Made by a program: the position numbers and the translations under genes. A stretch of DNA of 43,170 bases from Candidatus Calescibacterium sp. (GTDB lineage Bacteria; DRYD01). The notes under the pieces are model-generated. The model was not told the DNA's origin. It ran no database searches and was given only the letters and a program-made list of their open reading frames with translations. Shown in pieces: positions 12,916 to 43,003 of this stretch. The stretch spans positions 1 through 43,170 of the forward strand of contig JANXBF010000010.1 of the NCBI GenBank assembly GCA_025057615.1. The letters run 5' to 3'. Positions within the stretch are counted from its first letter, which is position 1; each line of letters starts with the position of its first letter.

Positions 12916-13815
12916 CTATACTACTTTTTTACCGTCCATGGAGGCATATTCTTCAGAAATTTCGTCGACCCATTTTTCGATAAGTTTTATATCTTCTTCT
13001 TTCAAATGTTTAAATCTTCCCTGAAGTTTAAAGTAATCAGTCAACGGTTTCCTCTTTTCTTTTTTCAGATAGGCTTTACTTGGAGCACTTATTTTAAATA
13101 TACCATTCTCTATCTCAAACAGTGGGTACATACCAGTTTGAACAGCAAGTTTTGCAGATTCCACACTTTTTTCGGTTGGTAAGAGCCAACCCGGTGTACA
13201 AGGTGAAAAAATTTGTATATATCTAAATCCCTTCATGTCTTTGGCTTTTAGTATTTTATCATATAAATCTGTTATAAAGGCAATACTTGCGGTAGCAACA
13301 TATGGTATACCATGAGCTGCCATAATCAAAGGTATGTTCTTCTTGTTTTCCCTTTTACCTGTTGGAGTCGTACCTGTAAAAGTGCCGAGTGGAGTAGCAC
13401 TCGACCTATGACCCCCAGTATTCATATAAGCTTCATTGTCATAACAAATATACAGTAAATCTTCGTTTCTTTCAGCTGCTCCACTAACTGTTGCAAGACC
13501 TATATCAAAAGTACCACCATCACCAGCCCAAACCATAACAACTGAATCTCTACCCATTACTTTCAAAGCTCTTACCATACCAGAAGCGGCAGCAGCAGAG
13601 GCAGCAAAAGGAGTATTCAGTAAGGGAACAGTCGCAGAAGAATTGGGGAACGGCGACTGAACAACACTGCTACATGAAGCAGGAACAACCATATAAACTT
13701 CCTTACCCAAAGCTTTAAGTACATTTCTTAAACCTATTGTCAAACCACATCCAGGGCAGCTGCCGTTACCAGCCAAAAAATACTCTTCATACGGTAACTG
13801 TTTTATAGAAGTCAT
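12916..13815 (-). CDS. porB: Pyruvate:ferredoxin oxidoreductase subunit beta
   Basis: 299 residues, the usual size for PorB. This subunit binds thiamine diphosphate and a [4Fe-4S] cluster. The TPP motif GDGGTFDIG is at residues 98-106, with the DNEAYMNTGG block ~20 residues later. The cluster cysteines are visible as C20 and C23 (CPGCG), C48 and C206 (SPCTPGW). The enzyme oxidises pyruvate with CoA to acetyl-CoA and CO2 and reduces ferredoxin. The ATG at 13815 has a GAGGTG site overlapping the end of porA, three bases away. It is the fourth gene of porC-porD-porA-porB, the order known from Thermotoga. A close 2-oxoacid relative is possible but pyruvate is most likely. Confidence 0.94.
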   Translation of the reverse strand: MTSIKQLPYEEYFLAGNGSCPGCGLTIGLRNVLKALGKEVYMVVPASCSSVVQSPFPNSSATVPLLNTPFAASAAAASGMVRALKVMGRDSVVMVWAGDGGTFDIGLATVSGAAERNEDLLYICYDNEAYMNTGGHRSSATPLGTFTGTTPTGKRENKKNIPLIMAAHGIPYVATASIAFITDLYDKILKAKDMKGFRYIQIFSPCTPGWLLPTEKSVESAKLAVQTGMYPLFEIENGIFKISAPSKAYLKKEKRKPLTDYFKLQGRFKHLKEEDIKLIEKWVDEISEEYASMDGKKVV

Positions 13816-13818
13816 AAA

Positions 13819-15054
13819 TCACACCTCCTCAAAATAGGAATCAACAGCAGCAAGATCCAATCCAACCCACCTAACCCGCTGAACTCCAATTCTACCATCA
13901 ACAATTTCTTTTAACTCAGTAAAAATCTTTTCAAAATCAACTATCCTAACGTCTTTCCCTCCCAATCCTCCAATGTAAGATTGAACTATTGGTTTATCCT
14001 TGAGATCATATAGTGCAAACTTCACTTCTGTTGCAATCATTCCACCTAAACCAGGAGACATGTTTCTATCAAAAACACCTATAGCTTTTAATTTACTAGC
14101 AATTTGAGATAGTCTTTTCACAGGAAAAGGTCTTATACTCCTGAGTCTTATAACACCGGCTTTTATACCATACTTTTCTCTAACATTTTTAGCAGCCTGT
14201 TTAGCATCACCAGATGAAGCACCTATAACAACAATGGCTACTTCTGCATCATCCAACAAATATTCTTCAATAACTCCCCCATAACTTCTACCAGTAAGTT
14301 TCTCCCATTCTTTGTCAACCTGATCAACCAAATCCTCAGATTCTTCTATAGTTCTAAAAATATCATACCTGAATTCTAAATAAACATTTGAATGAACAGC
14401 ATTACCATGAGTAAATGGATTAGAAGTATTCAAAGCATAGGGTTTAGGAACATCCTTAGGAATAAAACTATCTATAACAGACTGATCTGGTATTGATATT
14501 GGCATAGTAGTATGACTCAGTATGAAACCATCCAAACCTACAACAACAGGAATCAATGTTTTATCAGCAATCCTATAAGCTTGAATTATTGTATCAAAAA
14601 CCTCCTGATTATGCTCAGGAAACAAAACCATCCATCCCCATTCCCTTGGAAGCAAGACATCGGTATGTTCATTTCCCAATATCCAAGGAGCACCCATAGC
14701 TCTGCTGGTAATAGCCATGACAACAGGTAACCTACTACCACCAACCCAATATACCATCTCAGCCATGTAAAGTAATCCCTGAGAAGCTGTTGCAGTAAAA
14801 GCCCTTGCTCCAACAGAAGCTGCACCCATGGCAACAGCCATTGCACTGTGCTCCGACTCAACCCTTACTATCTCCATAGACAAATTCTCGGTCTCAATAT
14901 ACTTGGTCAAATATTCCATAATACTGGTTTGTGGACTTATAGGATAAGCTCCAACAACATCAACTTTTGCACACTTTACAGCTAAGGCAACTGCTTCATT
15001 CGCAGTAACAACTTTTACATTGGAAACACCCTTCTTTTCTTCTATAATACTCAT
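13819..15054 (-). CDS. porA: Pyruvate:ferredoxin oxidoreductase subunit alpha
   Basis: 411 residues. It carries YPISPQTSIMEYL near the N-terminus, the conserved VESEHSAMAVAMGAASVGAR segment and then TATASQGLLYMAEM, which together shape the pyrimidine side of the TPP site and the substrate pocket. The C-terminal half has the transketolase-C-like fold (VAIVVIGASSGDAKQAAKNV). The subunit pairs with PorB to form the catalytic core. It starts 15 nt after porD and ends 3 nt before porB. The beginning (MSIIEEKKGVSNVK) is slightly extended compared with typical PorA. No missing motif was seen. Confidence 0.94.
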   Translation of the reverse strand: MSIIEEKKGVSNVKVVTANEAVALAVKCAKVDVVGAYPISPQTSIMEYLTKYIETENLSMEIVRVESEHSAMAVAMGAASVGARAFTATASQGLLYMAEMVYWVGGSRLPVVMAITSRAMGAPWILGNEHTDVLLPREWGWMVLFPEHNQEVFDTIIQAYRIADKTLIPVVVGLDGFILSHTTMPISIPDQSVIDSFIPKDVPKPYALNTSNPFTHGNAVHSNVYLEFRYDIFRTIEESEDLVDQVDKEWEKLTGRSYGGVIEEYLLDDAEVAIVVIGASSGDAKQAAKNVREKYGIKAGVIRLRSIRPFPVKRLSQIASKLKAIGVFDRNMSPGLGGMIATEVKFALYDLKDKPIVQSYIGGLGGKDVRIVDFEKIFTELKEIVDGRIGVQRVRWVGLDLAAVDSYFEEV

Positions 15055-15069
15055 ATAATCACCTTCCCT

Positions 15070-15321
15070 TTAATCCTCTACCATTTCAATAGCATTAACT
15101 GGACATTCATTAGCACAAACCCCACAACCTTTACAATATTCATAATCAATATCAACAGAATTATCTTGAAACCTAAAGATGGTAGTTTCTGGACAAAAAG
15201 CCCAACAAATAACACATTTTATACATTTATCGTGATTAACCACAGGTTTTGAAGTTCTCCAAAGACCGGTTTTACCAACCGCTCCTTTAGATGGCTTAGA
15301 TTTAGGTATCAAAACTCTCAT
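15070..15321 (-). CDS. porD: Pyruvate:ferredoxin oxidoreductase subunit delta (2[4Fe-4S] ferredoxin-like)
   Basis: 83 residues. Two classical cluster motifs are present: C33, C36, C39, C43 (CIKCVICWAFCPE) and C63, C66, C69, C73 (CKGCGVCANECPV). The N-terminal SKPSKGAVGKTGLWRTSKPVV is characteristic of PorD rather than of free ferredoxins. It relays electrons from the TPP site to ferredoxin. The ATG follows an AAGGGGGT site and lies 3 nt after porC. Confidence 0.95.
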   Translation of the reverse strand: MRVLIPKSKPSKGAVGKTGLWRTSKPVVNHDKCIKCVICWAFCPETTIFRFQDNSVDIDYEYCKGCGVCANECPVNAIEMVED

Positions 15322-15324
15322 AAG

Positions 15325-15897
15325 CTACCCCCTTACTAAATTCTTCAAAACAACCTCATATGTCTCCTCATAAGCTCTTAAACAAGCCTGAGAATTCTTT
15401 TTACCAATTTCTCCTTTCCAATTCTCTTCAATAGTTTTAACCAAGGTATTTATATTGACAATATTGGTGGCTTTGGACAAAGCACCTAAAATAGCGGTAT
15501 TAACAACTGGCCAACCTGAAATAACCAAGTTCAAATCCAAACAAATCCTTGTTGCATCAACAATAAACAACTTACCATCAAAGTTCAAATCTTCGGGTAT
15601 TCTGTTAGTATTGATTATAACAGATCCACCTGGTTTCAAACCCTCAACTATATTGGTCATCTGTAATATTTTTTTATCAAGAACAACAACAACATCAGGT
15701 TCGTATATTTGCTGATGAACATTTATGGGAATTTGATCTATTCTTGCGTAAGCATTAAGAATAGCTCCTCTTCTTTCAGCACCAAAAGAAGGGTAAGCAA
15801 GCCCGAATTTACCTTCCTTAAAGGAAGCTTGAACAATTAGATTGGCAGCGGTAACAGCACCTTGGCCACCCCTACCAAGAAACTTAATCTCTATCAT
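15325..15897 (-). CDS. porC: Pyruvate:ferredoxin oxidoreductase subunit gamma
   Basis: 190 residues, first gene of the por set. The family opening IKFLGRGGQGAVTAANLIVQA, with GAERRGA at about residue 40, and the late ISGWPVVNTAILGALSKAT identify the gamma subunit (also called PorG). It binds the CoA-facing side of the complex. A strong AAGGAGGAATC site precedes the ATG. The 62-nt gap to the upstream LpxB-related gene could hold a por promoter, but no convincing -35/-10 pair was found. Confidence 0.94.
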   Translation of the reverse strand: MIEIKFLGRGGQGAVTAANLIVQASFKEGKFGLAYPSFGAERRGAILNAYARIDQIPINVHQQIYEPDVVVVLDKKILQMTNIVEGLKPGGSVIINTNRIPEDLNFDGKLFIVDATRICLDLNLVISGWPVVNTAILGALSKATNIVNINTLVKTIEENWKGEIGKKNSQACLRAYEETYEVVLKNLVRG

Positions 15898-30353: not shown

Positions 30354-31220
30354 CTATTTTATCCATTCTAAAAAAATAAGTGCAGCTTTTTCTTTCATTT
30401 TAACTTCAGGCATAACGTCAATCACAATATCTGTATTCAAGAGTGGAAACATAAGTTTTTTGAATCCATCAAAGTCCTTTCTATCTAAGTAATCAGAATG
30501 TTCATATTTTCTCTTACCAGCGCTAGATATATGAAATTTAGGAATCTTATTAACCCATGTTTTTATCAAATCATGCAAATCAAACTCAGAAGGATTGATT
30601 AAATGATGATAATAATCGAATACAACAGGTAAACCGGTAAATTTTGATATTTGTAAAACATCATTAACTGAAAATGATTTATCGTCATTTTCTATGGCTA
30701 TTCGCCTTTTCAAAGATACATTCTTTTCAAGATTTTTTATAAATCTCTCAATTGATTGTTGTTTATCTTGATATTTACCACCAATATGAATTATAATAAT
30801 GGAGTTTTGATCGGCTTCCAGAGAGTCCAAAATAAATGAATGATACTCTATTTCTCTTACTGATTCACTAACCACCTTTGGATCAGGAGAATTCAATACC
30901 ACAAACTGTCCAGGATGCATAGTCAATCTCACATTGTACTTTGTTATATTTTTTCTTTCAGATTTAAGTATATCTTCTATTTCATATCTCCATTCATCTT
31001 TGAAATCTTTGTGAGAAAAAAAGGGGACAAAATTACTACCAATCCTGAAAACTTCAAATCCATTATTTTTACAAAACTCAAGAATTAACTTCAGATCATT
31101 TAAATTTCTTAGAAATGTTTCAATAACTCTTTTATGTGATAAATTTTGAAACTTTATTTTTCTATTTGTAGTTAGTCCATTATCCCAAGTAGAACAGAAA
31201 AAACCAGTTCTGATTATCAT
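30354..31220 (-). CDS. uvsE: UV damage endonuclease (UvsE/UVDE family)
   Basis: 288 residues, a TIM-barrel DNA repair nuclease. Diagnostic blocks are VFRIGSNFVPFFSH, RLTMHPGQFVVLNSP (HPGQF at 102-106), IIIHIGGKY, IAIENDDKSFS and KFHISSAGKR. The His and Glu residues in these bind the metal cluster. The enzyme nicks DNA 5' to UV photoproducts and some other distortions. The gene stands alone and is divergent from lysS; no strong ribosome-binding site precedes its ATG. Length is within the family range. Confidence 0.93.
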   Translation of the reverse strand: MIIRTGFFCSTWDNGLTTNRKIKFQNLSHKRVIETFLRNLNDLKLILEFCKNNGFEVFRIGSNFVPFFSHKDFKDEWRYEIEDILKSERKNITKYNVRLTMHPGQFVVLNSPDPKVVSESVREIEYHSFILDSLEADQNSIIIIHIGGKYQDKQQSIERFIKNLEKNVSLKRRIAIENDDKSFSVNDVLQISKFTGLPVVFDYYHHLINPSEFDLHDLIKTWVNKIPKFHISSAGKRKYEHSDYLDRKDFDGFKKLMFPLLNTDIVIDVMPEVKMKEKAALIFLEWIK

Positions 31221-33772: not shown

Positions 33773-35587
33773 ATGAAAAAGGTAAATAATTTTACATGGT
33801 TAATTGGAGGTCCACAAGGAAGTGGAGTGGATTCCTCTGCTAACACTTTTGCTAAAACCTGTGCCTCAATAGGATTGTATATTTTTGGTAAAAGAGAATA
33901 CCATTCAAATATTAAAGGTGCGCACAGTTATTACCCAATAACAGTTTCTGATAAACCCGTAAGATCTCATACAGATAGTATAGACATACTTGCAACATTT
34001 GAAAAAGAAACCTTAAGTTTACACAAAGAAAATGTTGTTGAAAATGGTATAATAATATTCGATAAGGATTATAACGTGGATTTAAATCCTAATAAGTACA
34101 CCTTAGTTCCGTTACCGTTCAATGATATAATAAAGGAAGCTGCTGTTAAATTTCAGAGGGAGAAAGACTATTCAAAACTACAGATAATGAGAAATGTTAT
34201 AACGGTTGCAGCATCACTATCAATTTTAAACCTGGATGTAGAGTATCTCATAAAAACCTTGGAATCAGTATTCATAGGTAGAAGATCAAAATTACTGGAA
34301 ATAAACATTTTTGCTGCCAATTTGACATATGAGTATATAAAATCAAATTCTTTTAATAAGAAATCCATTTATGAGCTTAGACCAACAGAAAATAATGAAA
34401 ACTTGGTATTAACTTCTGGAACGACGGCAACAGCAATTGGCAAAATAGCTGGAGGATGTAGATTTCAAACTTACTATCCAATAACTCCTGCAAGTGATGA
34501 AAGCGAATACTTGGAAGCACATCCAGAATACGGTGTAGTTGTTGTTCAAACTGAGGATGAGATAGCTGCAATCTGTATGGCTATAGGAGCCTCATTGGCA
34601 GGGGTAAGAGCATCAACCTCCACATCAGGACCTGGATTCAGTCTAATGGCAGAAGCTCAAGGATGGGCCGGAATCAATGAAGTTCCCGTTGTTATCTTCA
34701 ACTATCAAAGAGGAGGTCCATCAACAGGGTTACCAACAAGACATGAACAGGGTGATCTGGAATTTGCACTCTACGCAGGACACTCCGAATTTCCAAGAAT
34801 AGTTTTGAGCCCAGGAGACATAGAAGAAAGCTTTTATTTAGCTATAGAATCTTTCAATCTAGCAGAAAAATATCAGTTACCAGTTATATTCCTATCAGAT
34901 AAGGCAATCGCAAATAGTATTCAAACAGTCAAATCTTTTAATCTATCAAACGTCAAAATAGAAAGAGGTAAAATGTTGTCAGACCAAGATTTGTTAACTC
35001 TATTAGAAAAAGAAGGTAGATACAAAAGATTCAAAATAACAGAAGACGGCATATCTCCAAGAATAAGTTTAGGACAGGGAATATTCTGGAATACAGGAGA
35101 TGAACATGACGAGTTTGGACATATATGCGAAGAATCAAATAATAGGACAATAATGTTCGATAAGAGAATGAGAAAAATGAATACGATAATAAAGGAATTG
35201 GATGTTTCATTGAAGTACAGAATGTATGGTCCAGAAAATGCTGATTATACTCTCATAGGGTGGGGCTCAGTAAAAGGTCCAATATTAGATACCTTGGAAG
35301 AATTAAATAAGTACTATAAGGTTAATTTCTTACAAATAATATTACTTAAGCCATTTCCTAGCGAAGAAATACTGTCACTTATTAAAAATTCAAAAATGTT
35401 AATAGGAATAGAAATGAATTATTCAGGACAGTTATGTAACTTAATTAGAAAAGAAACAGGAATAAAGATAAACAAGAGAATACTCAAATGGAATGGAAGA
35501 TCATTCTCAAGAGAAGAGATATTCAAAGGTGTAATAGATGCAATAAATTTGGATCAAGAAAAGATTATATGTAAATCTGGTATATAG
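33773..35587 (+). CDS. korA: 2-oxoacid:ferredoxin oxidoreductase, fused gamma-alpha subunit
   Basis: 604 residues. Residues ~8-190 form the gamma domain (WLIGGPQGSGVDSSANTFAK, REYHSNIKGAHSYY). The alpha domain begins near 205 with TATAIGKIAGGCRFQTYYPITPASDESEY and contains STSTSGPGFSLMAEAQGWAG. This fusion is typical of the two-subunit 2-oxoacid:ferredoxin oxidoreductases (KorA type), which oxidise 2-oxoglutarate and sometimes pyruvate or branched 2-oxoacids. Substrate preference cannot be read. An AAGGAG site lies 12 nt before the ATG. It is first in a run of genes with korB, bpsA and others, and differs from the four-subunit por set at 12916-15897. Confidence 0.92.
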   Translation: MKKVNNFTWLIGGPQGSGVDSSANTFAKTCASIGLYIFGKREYHSNIKGAHSYYPITVSDKPVRSHTDSIDILATFEKETLSLHKENVVENGIIIFDKDYNVDLNPNKYTLVPLPFNDIIKEAAVKFQREKDYSKLQIMRNVITVAASLSILNLDVEYLIKTLESVFIGRRSKLLEINIFAANLTYEYIKSNSFNKKSIYELRPTENNENLVLTSGTTATAIGKIAGGCRFQTYYPITPASDESEYLEAHPEYGVVVVQTEDEIAAICMAIGASLAGVRASTSTSGPGFSLMAEAQGWAGINEVPVVIFNYQRGGPSTGLPTRHEQGDLEFALYAGHSEFPRIVLSPGDIEESFYLAIESFNLAEKYQLPVIFLSDKAIANSIQTVKSFNLSNVKIERGKMLSDQDLLTLLEKEGRYKRFKITEDGISPRISLGQGIFWNTGDEHDEFGHICEESNNRTIMFDKRMRKMNTIIKELDVSLKYRMYGPENADYTLIGWGSVKGPILDTLEELNKYYKVNFLQIILLKPFPSEEILSLIKNSKMLIGIEMNYSGQLCNLIRKETGIKINKRILKWNGRSFSREEIFKGVIDAINLDQEKIICKSGI

Positions 35588-35601: not shown

Positions 35602-36561
<960 letters not shown>

Positions 36562-36565
36562 ATAC

Positions 36566-37615
36566 ATGAGAATAAATACTGAAAATATAAGCAGAACAGA
36601 ATACATAATTCTCAGATCTCTTTCTGAGTCCCCAAAAACTTATTGGGATCTTTTGTTAGAATCATTCGATACAGCAGCAAATACGATAAACTCAATAAAA
36701 AATCTATTGAATAATAACACAATATTATACAAAAACAATTATTTTTATTTATCGGAAGAAAATAAAGAGATATTTAAAAATATTCTAAAAATAGAATACA
36801 AAGATGTAAAATGCAAAGGTTGTAATGGAAAAGGGTTTATTAACGCATTCAATGGTATCTCAAAAGAATTTGGAGAAATAATAAAAGATAGACCCAAGGC
36901 AATACCTGAGTTCGATCAAGGCGTGGTAAACATTGATACCGTTATAAGCAGAATAACATTCATGTACTATAAAGGAGATCTAGAAAACAGAGATATAGTT
37001 TTAATTGGCGATGACGATTTAACTTCAATAGCTTTATCTCTTACAAATTTACCAAACAAAGTAATCGTTTTAGAAGCTGATAAAAGATTAGTAGATTATA
37101 TAAATGATAAAAGCAGAAAATTAGGGCTTGACAATCTCAAAGCAATATCTTATAATGTTGAGTGGAAAGTGGATAATAGTTTGAGAAATTCTTTTGACGT
37201 TTTCTTGACAGATCCCGTGGAAACTGTTCAAGGAATAAGCCTATTTATTTCAAGGGGATGTTCCATGTTAAAATCCCAGGGAGTACTATATTTTGGTCTA
37301 ACACATATAGAAGCTTCATATAAAAAATGGTATAAAATACATAAAAATCTCTATGAAATGAATTTTGTCATTACTGATATTCTTGATAAGTTTCAACTGT
37401 ATGAACTAAATCCGGATGATATAGTTTCCAAAGGATATAGAGTGTTCACTGAAATCGGTCTAGAGCTACCTAAACCAGAGAAACCCTGGTATAATTCCGC
37501 TTTCCATAGATTGGAACTAATCGATAAACCAAATCCATTATTTGATCCCGATAAGGAGTACAGATTAGAAAGGGATTTATATTATGATGACGAAGCTTAT
37601 GTCACTCTATACTGA
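36566..37615 (+). CDS. bpsA: Branched-chain polyamine synthase-like protein (BpsA family)
   Basis: 349 residues. The first ~70 residues look like a winged-helix domain (TEYIILRSLSESPKTYWDLL). A short CKGCNGKGF knuckle follows at 83-91. Then come DRPKAIPEFDQGVV and the catalytic GDDDL at 148-152 in a Rossmann-type methyltransferase fold (VIVLEADKRL). The R-P...F-D-Q block and the GDDD motif are hallmarks of BpsA, the N4-bis(aminopropyl)spermidine synthase of Thermococcus and other thermophiles. BpsA adds aminopropyl groups from decarboxylated S-adenosylmethionine to spermidine. It follows korB by 4 nt and overlaps the next gene by 32 nt. Family assignment is fairly strong; the product is inferred. 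Confidence 0.85.
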   Translation: MRINTENISRTEYIILRSLSESPKTYWDLLLESFDTAANTINSIKNLLNNNTILYKNNYFYLSEENKEIFKNILKIEYKDVKCKGCNGKGFINAFNGISKEFGEIIKDRPKAIPEFDQGVVNIDTVISRITFMYYKGDLENRDIVLIGDDDLTSIALSLTNLPNKVIVLEADKRLVDYINDKSRKLGLDNLKAISYNVEWKVDNSLRNSFDVFLTDPVETVQGISLFISRGCSMLKSQGVLYFGLTHIEASYKKWYKIHKNLYEMNFVITDILDKFQLYELNPDDIVSKGYRVFTEIGLELPKPEKPWYNSAFHRLELIDKPNPLFDPDKEYRLERDLYYDDEAYVTLY

Positions 37616-38342
37616 GAAAAAGTTAAATATAATATTAGTGGAAAAATACAGCCAAAGTGGATACTTGAATATGAAAATAGATGAATTTCTTTTTGAAAAC
37701 TTTGAAAAATTGGCAATCAATCCTTATAATTCCATAATATTTAGATTCTATAATTTCGCAAACCATACTATTACTCTAGGTTATTCACAGAATACTGTGG
37801 ATGAAAATATAAGAGAAGAATATAAAAAATGGTCATTTGTTAAGAGAATAACAGGAGGAAGAGCAGTATTTCATTATCCAAAAAAAGACTTAACATTATG
37901 TTTAATATCATCCATTCAAACATTTGAAAAGCTAAATATAAATATCCACAAAAACAAAATAAGAAATATACATTTATTCATAAACAATTGCTTATGGGAC
38001 TCAGTATATCCTCTCTTGAAAAATAATAAAAGCAAAGATATAAAAAATGTTCAGAATAAATATGTAAAGTTTGATTGTTTTCAAAACATTCATGATTTCG
38101 AAAAAGTCTATAACAATAAAAAAGTCATAGGAACAGCAATAAAAATTTCAGATCAAAAATTCATAGTCCAAGCGAATATAAAATTACAGTACATGTTTGA
38201 AAGGATAAGTAAAGACATAATCAACCAAATAGAAAACAATTTTCTGCGTAAACTAATAGAAACTGAAAATAGTCATTTTTATGATTCAAAAGAGTTCTAT
38301 CCTCTGAAACTTTTCGATTTATTCAAATTAATATCAAGATAA
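37584..38342 (+). CDS. Lipoate-protein ligase A-like protein (BPL/LplA/LipB superfamily)
   Basis: 252 residues. SIIFRFYNFANHTITLGYSQN and VKRITGGRAVFHYPKKDLT match the lipoate ligase fold. KKVIGTAIKI supplies the Lys that, in canonical ligases (KISGSA), contacts the lipoyl-AMP. These enzymes attach lipoate or octanoate to carrier domains; no lipoyl-bearing subunit (2-oxoacid dehydrogenase E2 or GcvH) is present here. The second half is short and divergent. The ATG at 37584 follows an AAAGGG site inside bpsA; an ATG at 37599 is a possible alternative. The substrate is uncertain. Confidence 0.72.
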   Translation: MMTKLMSLYTEKKLNIILVEKYSQSGYLNMKIDEFLFENFEKLAINPYNSIIFRFYNFANHTITLGYSQNTVDENIREEYKKWSFVKRITGGRAVFHYPKKDLTLCLISSIQTFEKLNINIHKNKIRNIHLFINNCLWDSVYPLLKNNKSKDIKNVQNKYVKFDCFQNIHDFEKVYNNKKVIGTAIKISDQKFIVQANIKLQYMFERISKDIINQIENNFLRKLIETENSHFYDSKEFYPLKLFDLFKLISR

Positions 38343-38353
38343 TCTTTATTTCT

Positions 38354-39211
38354 ATGAATATAAGTAAAGTGTTAATATTTTATAATTCAATAAATGTTGA
38401 TTTTTTTGTTATCAAATCTTTTTATGAAAAAATCAAGAAAGATTGTTCCTGTTTTAAACCAATAGATATAACAAACAAGAGAGAAATATCAATTTTTAGG
38501 AGTAATATAAAAAAAGTTGATATAGAGGATGATATTTTGGTTATAAACTTTGGTGGCGATGGTAGTCTATTTTCTTCATTATCACTTACAGCAGAATCAT
38601 TAGAAAAAAATAACATATACACAATTTCATTCAATTTTGGAAACAAAGGATTTTATTGTTTTTACTCTAAAGAAACACTAATGAATTTCTTAAAAGGGGA
38701 ACTAAATTTATTAGAAGCATCAATTTTAGCTTACGAAAATCAAGAATTTGTAGAAGGATATTTTTGGAAAGTAAACAATCAACACTACTTCATAGGAGAT
38801 GCAGTTATAAAACCCTATATACACTACAAAACTATAAAACTTGAATATCATATAGATAAAAAAAACATAGAGGAGATATGCGATGGTATAATAATTTTTA
38901 CAACATTTGGTTCCACAGGATATTTTTTATCAATAAATGGGATTTACATTGATACAGGGTTCAGCGACTTGATAGGAGTTTCTTTTATAGCTCCACATTC
39001 ACTAAAACACAGAGCTCAGCTATTCAAAAATAAAGAAATAGTAGTATTAAATAAAGATAGGAAAAATGCCATTTTATTAACTGATGGACAAGATAAATTG
39101 ATTATTGAACCTCAAGAATCTATTATTATAAACAAATCTGAAAAAAAATTCACTCTGATTGGTAATAAGAACATATTCACTCGATGGATAGAAAACTTCT
39201 ATGAAAAATAA
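38354..39211 (+). CDS. nadK: NAD kinase-like protein, divergent
   Basis: 285 residues. The family shows as INFGGDGSLFSSL (GGDG at 67-70), the FNFGNKGFYCF segment, TTFGSTGYFLSINGIYID and GVSFIAPHSLKHRAQLF. NAD kinase makes NADP from NAD and ATP. Compared with typical members, the GGDG is followed by SLF rather than TLL, and the Asn-Glu pair expected before the second strand is not evident (YFIGDAVIKPYI there). It starts 11 nt after the preceding stop without a clear ribosome-binding site and overlaps the next gene by 11 nt. It could be a functional NadK or a relative with another role. Confidence 0.75.
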   Translation: MNISKVLIFYNSINVDFFVIKSFYEKIKKDCSCFKPIDITNKREISIFRSNIKKVDIEDDILVINFGGDGSLFSSLSLTAESLEKNNIYTISFNFGNKGFYCFYSKETLMNFLKGELNLLEASILAYENQEFVEGYFWKVNNQHYFIGDAVIKPYIHYKTIKLEYHIDKKNIEEICDGIIIFTTFGSTGYFLSINGIYIDTGFSDLIGVSFIAPHSLKHRAQLFKNKEIVVLNKDRKNAILLTDGQDKLIIEPQESIIINKSEKKFTLIGNKNIFTRWIENFYEK

Positions 39212-40613
39212 AATAGAAAAAAAAATAACAGACTTAAAAGAGTTAAAAATAATTCCATTAAATACAACAGTTCCATTTGTAGACATTATTTTAAATAATG
39301 ATGTCCTGATTTTAAATTATTCTTCACCAAATATCAGAATGCTTTTTAAATTTATAGAACATTTCATATCGGAAAAAAAATATGAATTACTAAATGAAAG
39401 TTTAACTATAATTTGTATAATTCCACACAAAGTCAAATATTATGACGAATATCTAATAGATAATTTGCCATTTCCAATATACCAAACTACTGATACTTTC
39501 TATTTGGAAATATCAAAAAATACATTAGTAACAAATGTAAATAATTCATTAGAAATACAAACTTCAAGTAACTATGATTTAGCATATTTATTTATTAGCA
39601 AAAATAAGATCGATTTTTCATTACAAAATGAAATAAATGTAGAAAAAGAATATTTAAAAGTCACAGAAAAATTGAACTATAAAATAATACCAATAAACTA
39701 CTCCGAAAGAATAAAAGATATAAAAATGGAGAGCTTTAGAAATAGTAACATATTATGTATTTTAAAAAATGTAAATTTATATTCAGTTGTTAATCTATAT
39801 TCTATTGGTACCAACTACAAATTGGTAACTCTCAAATCTATAAAAAATCTTACATTCATAAAATCCATTGGTCTACTGACACTGGATCACAATAATATAT
39901 TAATATTTCTACTGACAATTGAAAACACAATAATTATTCAAAAATACAATATTGATAATGATAGACTTGAATATTTGGAAGAATTGAAATTATGGAATTA
40001 CTATGAAAAACTAAAAAGCTTAGATTTGAAGAAGATGAACATAAATAATGAAAACATTATTCTGTGGGATCATAATACAATATATGTTTTTAAACACAAC
40101 ATTACAGCTAATGTATTAACGGGTAAAAAAACGGAAATTTCATTTTACAATGTCAGTGGTCAGAAATCAAAACAAACTCATGTACCCACAGATGGAGTAT
40201 GGAAACAAACAATATGGGGAAATATTAATAACACTCACTTAAATAATGATGATTTATATGTAGCAGATACAGAATATTCGCAATTAAGAAAATTAGATTT
40301 AAGAAGTGGTGCAAGCAAATCAATCAACTTTAAATCTCCAGATAAAGAGCGAGAAAAACTTAAAGGAAAGATATCTTCAATTTACACTACATTTAATAAA
40401 ACATTTTTTATTGATTTAGATTTTAAAAAAATAAGATATATAGACAATAATTCGAAAAATTCAGTAATAAAGACGGTATTTTATGACGAAAATATCAATC
40501 TTTTTTCCCAGTTATTCTTCATCGAATCTCTGAATTCAATAGTATATAATACAGATAAACATGTAATATTTATTGATTTATACAGAATGGAAACAAGGAG
40601 GGAGATATGTTAA
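39201..40613 (+). CDS. Hypothetical protein, possible beta-propeller (NHL-like) domain
   Basis: 470 residues, unrecognised. No signal peptide or membrane segment. The first ~130 residues look like an alpha/beta domain (NNDVLILNYSSPNIRMLFKF) lacking catalytic cysteines. The rest is a repetitive series of strands, of which DDLYVADTEYSQLRKLDLRSG strongly resembles an NHL/beta-propeller blade. A Trx-like plus NHL layout as in NHLRC2 is conceivable but unproven. The ATG overlaps the NAD kinase-like gene by 11 nt, and its stop overlaps the phosphoketolase start by 7 nt, so the genes are translated together. Function unknown. Confidence 0.7.
   Translation: MKNKIEKKITDLKELKIIPLNTTVPFVDIILNNDVLILNYSSPNIRMLFKFIEHFISEKKYELLNESLTIICIIPHKVKYYDEYLIDNLPFPIYQTTDTFYLEISKNTLVTNVNNSLEIQTSSNYDLAYLFISKNKIDFSLQNEINVEKEYLKVTEKLNYKIIPINYSERIKDIKMESFRNSNILCILKNVNLYSVVNLYSIGTNYKLVTLKSIKNLTFIKSIGLLTLDHNNILIFLLTIENTIIIQKYNIDNDRLEYLEELKLWNYYEKLKSLDLKKMNINNENIILWDHNTIYVFKHNITANVLTGKKTEISFYNVSGQKSKQTHVPTDGVWKQTIWGNINNTHLNNDDLYVADTEYSQLRKLDLRSGASKSINFKSPDKEREKLKGKISSIYTTFNKTFFIDLDFKKIRYIDNNSKNSVIKTVFYDENINLFSQLFFIESLNSIVYNTDKHVIFIDLYRMETRREIC
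40595..40603 (+). promoter_or_regulatory. Strong ribosome-binding site AAGGAGGGA before phosphoketolase
   Basis: AAGGAGGGA lies inside the end of the preceding gene and 3 nt before the ATG at 40607, supporting independent high-level initiation of phosphoketolase. Confidence 0.75.
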
Positions 40614-43003
40614 TAAAGGAAAAGATAGATGAGAATTTATTGGATTACTTTTTTAAAGCCTGTTGCTATATAGCAGTTGGTATGATATATTTGAAAGATA
40701 ATCCTTTATTAAAAGAACCATTAAAATTTGAACATATAAAGGATAGACTTTTGGGTCATTGGGGTGCAAGCCCAACCATAAGCTTCGTTTATACACATAC
40801 AAACAGAATAGTAAAAGAGTATGATATCGAGTGTATGATAGTAGTAGGACCTGGTCATGGAGCTCCGGGGTACATCGCTCCACTATACTTAGAAGGAACT
40901 TTATCAAAATATTACCCAAATTTTAGTCAGGATGAAGAAGGCTTAAAATCTCTTTTCAGAGCGTTTTCTTTTCCTGGGGGTTTGGGTAGCCATTGTACTC
41001 CCGAGTTACCGGGAACAATTCAGGAAGGAGGAGAATTGGGATATACTTTGTCACACTCATTTGGAGCAGTTTTTGATAACCCGAATCTGATAGTTATATC
41101 AATTATAGGAGATGGAGAGGCTGAAACTGGTCCATTATCAGCTTCATGGCATTCAAACAAATTTATTAATCCCGTAACGGATGGAGTTGTGATCCCAATC
41201 CTTTCACTAAACGGATATAAAATAAATAATCCGACCATATTATCTCGTATAGAAAATAAAGAGCTCATGGATCTATTTAAAGGATATGGTTATGACCCAA
41301 TAATAGTAGAATATAATGAAAATATACATCAACATATGTCACAGGCAATGGATTTTTGCATTGAAAAGATAAAGAATTTATGGGAAGAAGCAAGAAGCAA
41401 AAACAAACCATTTTATGTGAAACTACCAATGATAATACTCAAGGTTCCAAAAGGATGGACCGCACCTAAAAAATTTAAGAATCATTTTATTGAAGGATAT
41501 TGGAGATCACACCAGGTTCCGTTACAAAACTGTAAAACTAGTGAAGAAGAATTAAAAATGTTAGAAGAATGGTTAAAAAGCTACGAACCAGAAAACATAT
41601 TTGATTCGTCGGGTAAGCTAAAAGACACAATAAAAAAGGTGATACCAGATAAAAAAATAGGAGAGAATATATATTCTAATGGAGGAAAGATAAGAAAACC
41701 ACTCAAACTACCGGAAATAAAAAAATATGGTATAGATTTAGAAAAACCATGTAAAACAAATGTATCAAATACTCAGAACTTAGGTGTATATCTAGCCGAT
41801 ATAATAAGAGAAAACAGGGACAATTTCAGAGTATTTGGACCAGATGAAACTGCTTCTAACAGATTATCTAAAGTTTTTGAATTTGGAAAAACATGGATGT
41901 TACAGAAATTACAGGAGGATGAAGACGAAGGATATTTAGAATCTTTTGGTAGAACGATGGAAATTCTATCTGAACATACAATCGAAGGTTGGTTAGAGGG
42001 CTACCTACTTACAGGAAGACATGGAATTCTTAATACATATGAGGGTTTTGCTCCTATAATTTCTTCGATGGTAAACCAATTTGGAAAATGGTTAGATATT
42101 TCTTTAGATGTTCCATGGAGAGAACCTATAAGTTCATTGAACATTTTGTTAACTTCTGTAGTATGGAGACAGGATCATAACGGTTTTACCCATCAAGATC
42201 CAGGGTTTATAAATTCCATAGTTGATAAATGGCCTGAGATAGTTAGAGTATATTTCCCTTGCGACTCCAATACACTGATTGCTTGCATTCATTCGTGTTT
42301 GCAGACAACAAATAGAATAAACATTATTATTTGTGACAAACAAGTTCATCCACAGTATTTAACGATAGATCAAGCTTTCAACCATTTCATCAAGGGTATA
42401 GGAATTTTTGATTTTTTAAGTGATGAAAAAGAGCCAGACGTAATACTAGCAAGTTGTGGAGATATACCAACCAAAGAAAATGTATTTGCAAGAAGCATAC
42501 TGAAACAACTTTTCCCTGAGATTAACATAAGATTTATTAACATATCCAATCTTTTCAGATTAGCTCCAGAAAATGAGCATCCTGATGGATTGAAAGATGA
42601 TATTTTTGATATGTACTTTACAGAAGATAAACCAATAATATTCAATTTTCACGGTTATCCTTGGCTAATACATAGATTAACTTATAGAAGGAAAAATCAT
42701 AAAAACCTACACGTAAGAGGATACAGAGAAAATAGGAAAACTGGGATAGATGCTTTTCATCTGGTCCCATTTTTAAAAGGAAGAGGAGGAATAACCACTC
42801 CCCTACAATTGGCAATAATAAATCAAGTAGATAGATTTAGTATAGCCATAGATGCTATAAAGAGGATAGAAAAATTGAAATTGAAAGGAGCAAAATATGT
42901 AGACTTACTTAAAAATAAACAGATAGAGGCTTTAAAATTTGCATACGAAAACGGGGTAGACAATCCTGATTATGAGGACATTTTTGATTTTAAATTATGG
43001 TAG
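40607..43003 (+). CDS. xfp: Xylulose-5-phosphate/fructose-6-phosphate phosphoketolase
   Basis: 798 residues, standard for the family. GPGHGAPGYIAPLYLEG (81-97), SFPGGLGSHCTPELPG and the TPP motif GDGEAETGP (168-176) are diagnostic. SVVWRQDHNGFTHQDPGF and the late NHKNLHVRGYRENRKTGI are typical of the C-terminal half. The enzyme splits xylulose-5-phosphate (and often fructose-6-phosphate) with phosphate into acetyl-phosphate and glyceraldehyde-3-phosphate (or erythrose-4-phosphate). The ATG overlaps the previous gene by 7 nt. The end overlaps an acetate kinase start by 32 nt, a natural partner that turns acetyl-phosphate into ATP. Single or dual substrate use cannot be told from sequence. Confidence 0.96.
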   Translation: MLIKEKIDENLLDYFFKACCYIAVGMIYLKDNPLLKEPLKFEHIKDRLLGHWGASPTISFVYTHTNRIVKEYDIECMIVVGPGHGAPGYIAPLYLEGTLSKYYPNFSQDEEGLKSLFRAFSFPGGLGSHCTPELPGTIQEGGELGYTLSHSFGAVFDNPNLIVISIIGDGEAETGPLSASWHSNKFINPVTDGVVIPILSLNGYKINNPTILSRIENKELMDLFKGYGYDPIIVEYNENIHQHMSQAMDFCIEKIKNLWEEARSKNKPFYVKLPMIILKVPKGWTAPKKFKNHFIEGYWRSHQVPLQNCKTSEEELKMLEEWLKSYEPENIFDSSGKLKDTIKKVIPDKKIGENIYSNGGKIRKPLKLPEIKKYGIDLEKPCKTNVSNTQNLGVYLADIIRENRDNFRVFGPDETASNRLSKVFEFGKTWMLQKLQEDEDEGYLESFGRTMEILSEHTIEGWLEGYLLTGRHGILNTYEGFAPIISSMVNQFGKWLDISLDVPWREPISSLNILLTSVVWRQDHNGFTHQDPGFINSIVDKWPEIVRVYFPCDSNTLIACIHSCLQTTNRINIIICDKQVHPQYLTIDQAFNHFIKGIGIFDFLSDEKEPDVILASCGDIPTKENVFARSILKQLFPEINIRFINISNLFRLAPENEHPDGLKDDIFDMYFTEDKPIIFNFHGYPWLIHRLTYRRKNHKNLHVRGYRENRKTGIDAFHLVPFLKGRGGITTPLQLAIINQVDRFSIAIDAIKRIEKLKLKGAKYVDLLKNKQIEALKFAYENGVDNPDYEDIFDFKLW

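Follow-up and report, generated by a model that had tools for sequence, protein, structure and literature searches.

The analysed window, that is, the whole 43,170-nt stretch, carries on its forward strand an ORF at 36566-37615, which starts with ATG and encodes a 349-aa protein, referred to here as bpsA. It lies in a same-strand gene string with lysS, cdsA, korA and korB upstream and an lplA-like gene, a nadK-like gene, the gene of a 470-aa protein and a phosphoketolase gene downstream; the names of the flanking genes are based on Pfam and NCBIfam matches, and those in the first 30 kb of the window were given by eye. The nearest upstream neighbours, considered only as such, are korA (33773-35587 +, TIGR03710, 647.7 bits), encoding a fused gamma-alpha form of the 2-oxoacid:ferredoxin oxidoreductase alpha subunit, and korB (35605-36561 +, NF041171, 446.9 bits), encoding the beta subunit. 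As the earlier note had correctly described, only 4 nt separate the end of korB from the bpsA start, and the 3′-end of bpsA overlaps the next gene by 32 nt. Direct reading of the sequence also revealed a Shine-Dalgarno-like GGGGG run at the end of korB (36554-36558 +), 7 nt before the start of bpsA. The overlapping gene (37584-38342 +) encodes a lipoyl-ligase/octanoyltransferase-like protein, named from a PF21948 match (41.9 bits) and synteny, for which the sequence search of the PDB gave no match at E 0.01. According to the coordinates, the same 32-nt overlap occurs in the genus relatives that have both genes on the contig (L016 and L017). The NAD kinase-like gene follows at 38354-39211 + (PF20143, 55.5 bits).

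The 470-aa protein gene (39201-40613 +), without Pfam or NCBIfam match, is kept after nadK in the relatives with long enough contigs. The model of this protein had a pLDDT of 60 with an unreliable N-terminal third, and it suggests with modest confidence a beta-rich, possibly propeller fold for the C-terminal two thirds. The phosphoketolase gene (40607-43003 +, NF003617, 1248.6 bits) closes the string; in the relative L017 it is followed by an acetate-kinase-like gene (14385-15449), which suggests a phosphoketolase-acetate route. Elsewhere in the window, a second 2-oxoacid:ferredoxin oxidoreductase set of four genes (gamma, delta, alpha and beta by eye) is present at 12916-15897 on the reverse strand besides the fused korAB, and a UvdE/UvsE-type UV damage endonuclease gene (30354-31220, reverse strand) is divergent to lysS. 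Inspection of the ORF list of the window showed no further polyamine genes. The Rfam search for an RNA element at the operon detected two tRNAs only, promoter-like and terminator-like sites numbered 75 and 7, respectively, versus 70.5 and 4.3 in shuffled sequences, and comparison with a plasmid collection gave one weak and partial match.

Family assignment of the 349-aa protein by hmmscan yielded PF01861 (BpsA_C) as the sole Pfam family, with 238.2 bits against the curated cut-off of 27 (E 1e-70), and an NCBIfam search of the protein gave no match. The PDB sequence search returned only four distinct chains, namely the Thermococcus BpsA, the Pyrococcus relative 2qm3 and two Thermus BpsAs, the best match being the Thermococcus enzyme 5xnc (E 2.5e-50). 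Both E values are far beyond chance, at an identity of approximately 30% to the characterised BpsAs. SpeE-type linear aminopropyltransferases (PF01564) share the decarboxylated S-adenosylmethionine (dcSAM) donor and the Rossmann core with BpsA. The genome of the window encodes one of these beside speD, but the 349-aa protein had no PF01564 match at E 0.001 and direct BLASTP against this SpeE found nothing (E 2.6). Membership in the SpeE-type spermidine/spermine synthases was rejected on the absence of the PF01564 domain.

An AlphaFold2 model built from 13 homologues (mean pLDDT 88.7) was compared with known structures. The top nine Foldseek matches were BpsA entries and 2qm3, the weakest with an E value of 1.1e-28, after which the values dropped to 1e-9. 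In the VIA-align comparison, made on chains already selected by Foldseek, the model matched 5xnc with a Z score of 39.6 (rmsd 2.2, 335 residues aligned) and the Thermus BpsA with 37.9 (325 residues). The next structural family was METTL5 with Z 21.1, and full-length coverage was obtained only with BpsA. The presence of METTL5-type and other methyltransferases as the next structural matches, together with the deposition of 2qm3 as a "predicted methyltransferase", could point to a SAM-dependent methyltransferase, acting for instance on RNA, with only the Rossmann core in common with BpsA. However, the distance between Z 39.6 and 21.1, the full-length match with BpsA only, and the retained GDDD motif and acidic tail make such an enzyme extremely improbable, and this reading was rejected on the fold and motif tests.

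The residues known to work in the enzyme of Thermococcus kodakarensis (Tk-BpsA) could be traced in the window protein. A 2026 review (PMC12979288) lists for Tk-BpsA the GDDD-motif aspartates D159 and D160, together with D225, E259, Y290, Y316 and the acidic tail, and attributes to the GDDD loop the positioning of the dcSAM aminopropyl group. The equivalents of the six residues are D150, D151, D216, E249, Y279 and Y309, which are invariant in 13/13 aligned homologues, as are C83, C86, D117 and Q118. The codons of G148-D149-D150-D151, the counterpart of Tk-BpsA GDDD 157-160 and likewise invariant in all 13 homologues, occupy 37007-37018, those of D117-Q118 36914-36919 and those of C83-x-x-C86 36812-36823 (all +); the conserved cysteine pair is a possible metal or structural site. 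The acidic tail is also retained (D337, D341, D342 and E343), and the codons of D341-D342-E343 (37586-37594 +) correspond to the aminopropyl-carrier region of Tk-BpsA, two of the 13 aligned rows ending before the tail. Since the tail-carrier numbers in the review (339, 342-345) fall 2 short of those obtained when the PDB chain is counted from Met1, this tail equivalence was set by spacing. The confidence of the model was lower here, with a pLDDT of 69 for the last block. Considering the family model, the sequence matches, the predicted fold and the active-site residues, we assign the window protein with very high confidence as a true BpsA. The earlier note had proposed a BpsA-type enzyme from the FDQ (F116-D117-Q118) and GDDDL (G148-L152) blocks, both of which are present; the structural comparison with Thermococcus BpsA, which it had recommended, bore out this identity, with BpsA chains at the top of the matches instead of unrelated methyltransferases.

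Beyond the full-length fold and the retained GDDD loop and D225, E259, Y290 and Y316 equivalents shared with Tk-BpsA (5xnc, 5xnf and 5xnh), the window protein differs from this enzyme in its bacterial host, in the sequence (approximately 31% identity) and in the tail, which reads YYDDEAYVTLY versus LYDDEESSTT in Tk-BpsA. The Thermus thermophilus enzyme (Tth-BpsA; 6j27 and 6j28) resembles it in being bacterial and in having an acidic D-[DE]-E tail (LQDEEATTY), but the identity is again about 31%, and Tth-BpsA groups with the Tk branch. This grouping was obtained from an unrooted tree of 33 rows, including the added Tk, Pf and Tth enzymes, for which the tool gave a long-branch warning and which was split with 100/100 support into 15 rows with all three solved BpsA-family proteins and 18 rows with the window protein. 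By its sequence, the window protein is a member of a deep bacterial BpsA branch without solved structure. The tail signature of this branch is Y-[YFL]-D-x-x-[AST]-[YFW], the tail ending with D-[DEN]-E-A-[YF]-V-T-L-Y in the window's order and with D-x-[ED]-[AST]-[YFW] in the rest, whereas the tail of the other branch is mostly E-[SA]-[AST]-T-T, or EEATTY. Reverse gyrase was found in one of the 11 genomes of the window's branch outside the window's order (G019) versus 7/12 genomes of the other branch. In the literature on branched-polyamine synthases in bacteria and metagenomes, surveyed with few subscription papers covered, no study of the window protein's branch was found.

The tail may bear on the product. 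As described in section 9 of the review (PMC12979288), swapping the tails of the Tk and Tth enzymes alters their product choice. A branched-polyamine synthase whose own tail gives it another main product, either by stopping at N4-aminopropylspermidine or by using another acceptor, would agree with this observation, with the deep separate position of the branch lacking a solved member and with its distinct tail signature. On the other hand, every acceptor-site residue named for Tk-BpsA is retained, and we regard such a variant as unlikely for the window protein. A broader version, in which the protein represents a second deep bacterial BpsA branch whose own tail changes the branched-polyamine product or the range of acceptors, and which reaches bacteria without reverse gyrase, is tentative and only slightly less doubtful. 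Because the tail is distinct and tail swaps change the known products, N4-bis(aminopropyl)spermidine is assigned to the window protein as its exact product with no more than moderate confidence.

The partner enzymes of BpsA were sought in the window's own genome (G000), a 1.40-Mb bin of 83.7% completeness. The earlier note had remarked that bpsA does not lie with speD/speE-type genes and had suggested a genome search for S-adenosylmethionine decarboxylase and spermidine synthase. Indeed, neither gene is next door, and both were found side by side on another contig (C13), thus the enzymes supplying dcSAM and spermidine are encoded in the same genome as BpsA. SpeD matched TIGR03330 with 151.7 bits. 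The closest PDB entries of SpeE are the Thermus aminopropyltransferases 3anx/1uir, and it carries a GGGEGA motif, which a study of bacterial aminopropyltransferases (PMC11107197) links with the clade formed by thermospermine and spermidine/aminopropylagmatine synthases. An agmatinase-type ureohydrolase (TIGR01230, 179.2 bits versus the cut-off of 174.3) and a second arginase-family gene are also present. Arginine decarboxylase (PvlArgDC, PF02784 and OKR_DC_1) was not found in the 83.7%-complete bin; its single PF02784 match adjoins aspartokinase, reads as LysA by eye and was rejected as a candidate. PvlArgDC was absent from 7/7 genomes of the order. Since OKR_DC_1, lacking in G000, was over the cut-off in 4/6 order-mates (G002, G003, G004 and G005), the missing decarboxylase is likely a gap in the incomplete bin. 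As a separate observation, beside speD-speE of G004 (L093, 5316-6377) there is an L-erythro-3,5-diaminohexanoate dehydrogenase-like gene of the lysine-fermentation type, scoring 192.3 bits, just below the cut-off of 200, with an arginase-family gene next to it.

The significance of the korAB neighbourhood was examined by comparing the gene order among relatives. The bpsA gene is present in 7/7 genomes of the order and these copies form one clade (support 100/99) in a tree that follows kinship, a pattern more suggestive of descent than of recent transfer. The korAB-bpsA order was found in 4/4 genomes of the genus, but in neither of the two sister-genus genomes nor in the one genome of the neighbouring family, although all of them carry bpsA. 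The bpsA-lplA-nadK order is more widespread, being present in 5/6 genomes of the family (the contig of G001 stops shortly downstream of bpsA). In G006, bpsA adjoins the genes of ribosomal proteins L18, S5 and L15 (L18 by eye), and in the distant genome G016 it is preceded, within 3 kb, by speE and a ureohydrolase gene. Co-regulation of bpsA with korAB, by which branched polyamines would track growth on 2-oxoacids, could be suspected from the common strand, the 4-nt gap, the ribosome-site-like run inside the end of korB and the full conservation of the order in the genus. Against it, korAB is missing beside bpsA in all three genomes examined outside the genus, and the genes next to bpsA in G006 and G016 are different ones, making such co-regulation highly improbable. 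As the neighbours of bpsA change across genomes, the link with korAB is a young, genus-level arrangement and not a functional tie; a general tie between bpsA and korAB was rejected on the restriction of the link to one genus. Of the two explanations offered in the earlier note, shuffling of neighbours therefore fits, while coordination with growth on 2-oxoacids is left without support, as only co-orientation within the genus speaks for it. Nevertheless, the korAB neighbourhood may provide bpsA with steady expression of the housekeeping-operon type.

Branched polyamines are used by heat-loving microbes for the protection of nucleic acids. The reverse gyrase encoded in G000 is full-length (1095 aa, 792.6 bits); the enzyme was over the cut-off also in G001-G005, and separate fragments of it were found in G006. 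The 16S search of G000 gave no match. The G+C content of the 16S rRNA is 57.6% in G002 and 56.3% in G004, compared with 41% and 35%, respectively, in the 1500-base flanks. Among 386 sampled genomes, BpsA was over the cut-off in 43, reverse gyrase in 22 and both in 16. Outside the window's order, BpsA was present in 10/16 genomes with reverse gyrase versus 26/363 others (Fisher p 9e-8, uncorrected for kinship), and when counted by family, a strong BpsA match was found in 6/10 reverse-gyrase families. These counts indicate that BpsA is associated with heat without marking it strictly. For this genome, the thermophily that the earlier note read from BpsA is independently supported by the full-length reverse gyrase. 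The host bacterium is probably thermophilic with a nearly complete branched-polyamine pathway.

Judged from sequence and model, the bpsA product is very probably a branched-chain polyamine synthase of the EC 2.5.1.128 type, which would convert spermidine to N4-bis(aminopropyl)spermidine with dcSAM as donor, in a korAB neighbourhood that is a genus-level arrangement. Provision of dcSAM and spermidine would fall to the adjacent speD and speE genes on contig C13, spermidine probably arising through the agmatine route by SpeE and then the agmatinase-type ureohydrolase. BpsA would act by a ping-pong mechanism, in which the GDDD loop positions dcSAM and the aminopropyl group is taken over and held by the acidic residues in the flexible C-terminal tail. 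From there it would be transferred to N4, the central nitrogen of spermidine; the first transfer would yield N4-aminopropylspermidine and the second N4-bis(aminopropyl)spermidine. The role of this branched polyamine would be to protect nucleic acids against heat. A little-known bacterial lineage is added to the expected makers of branched polyamines, its genome supporting heat adaptation as well as the pathway for donor and acceptor, and its BpsA branch, which has no solved structure, offers a place to test the rule that the tail decides the product.
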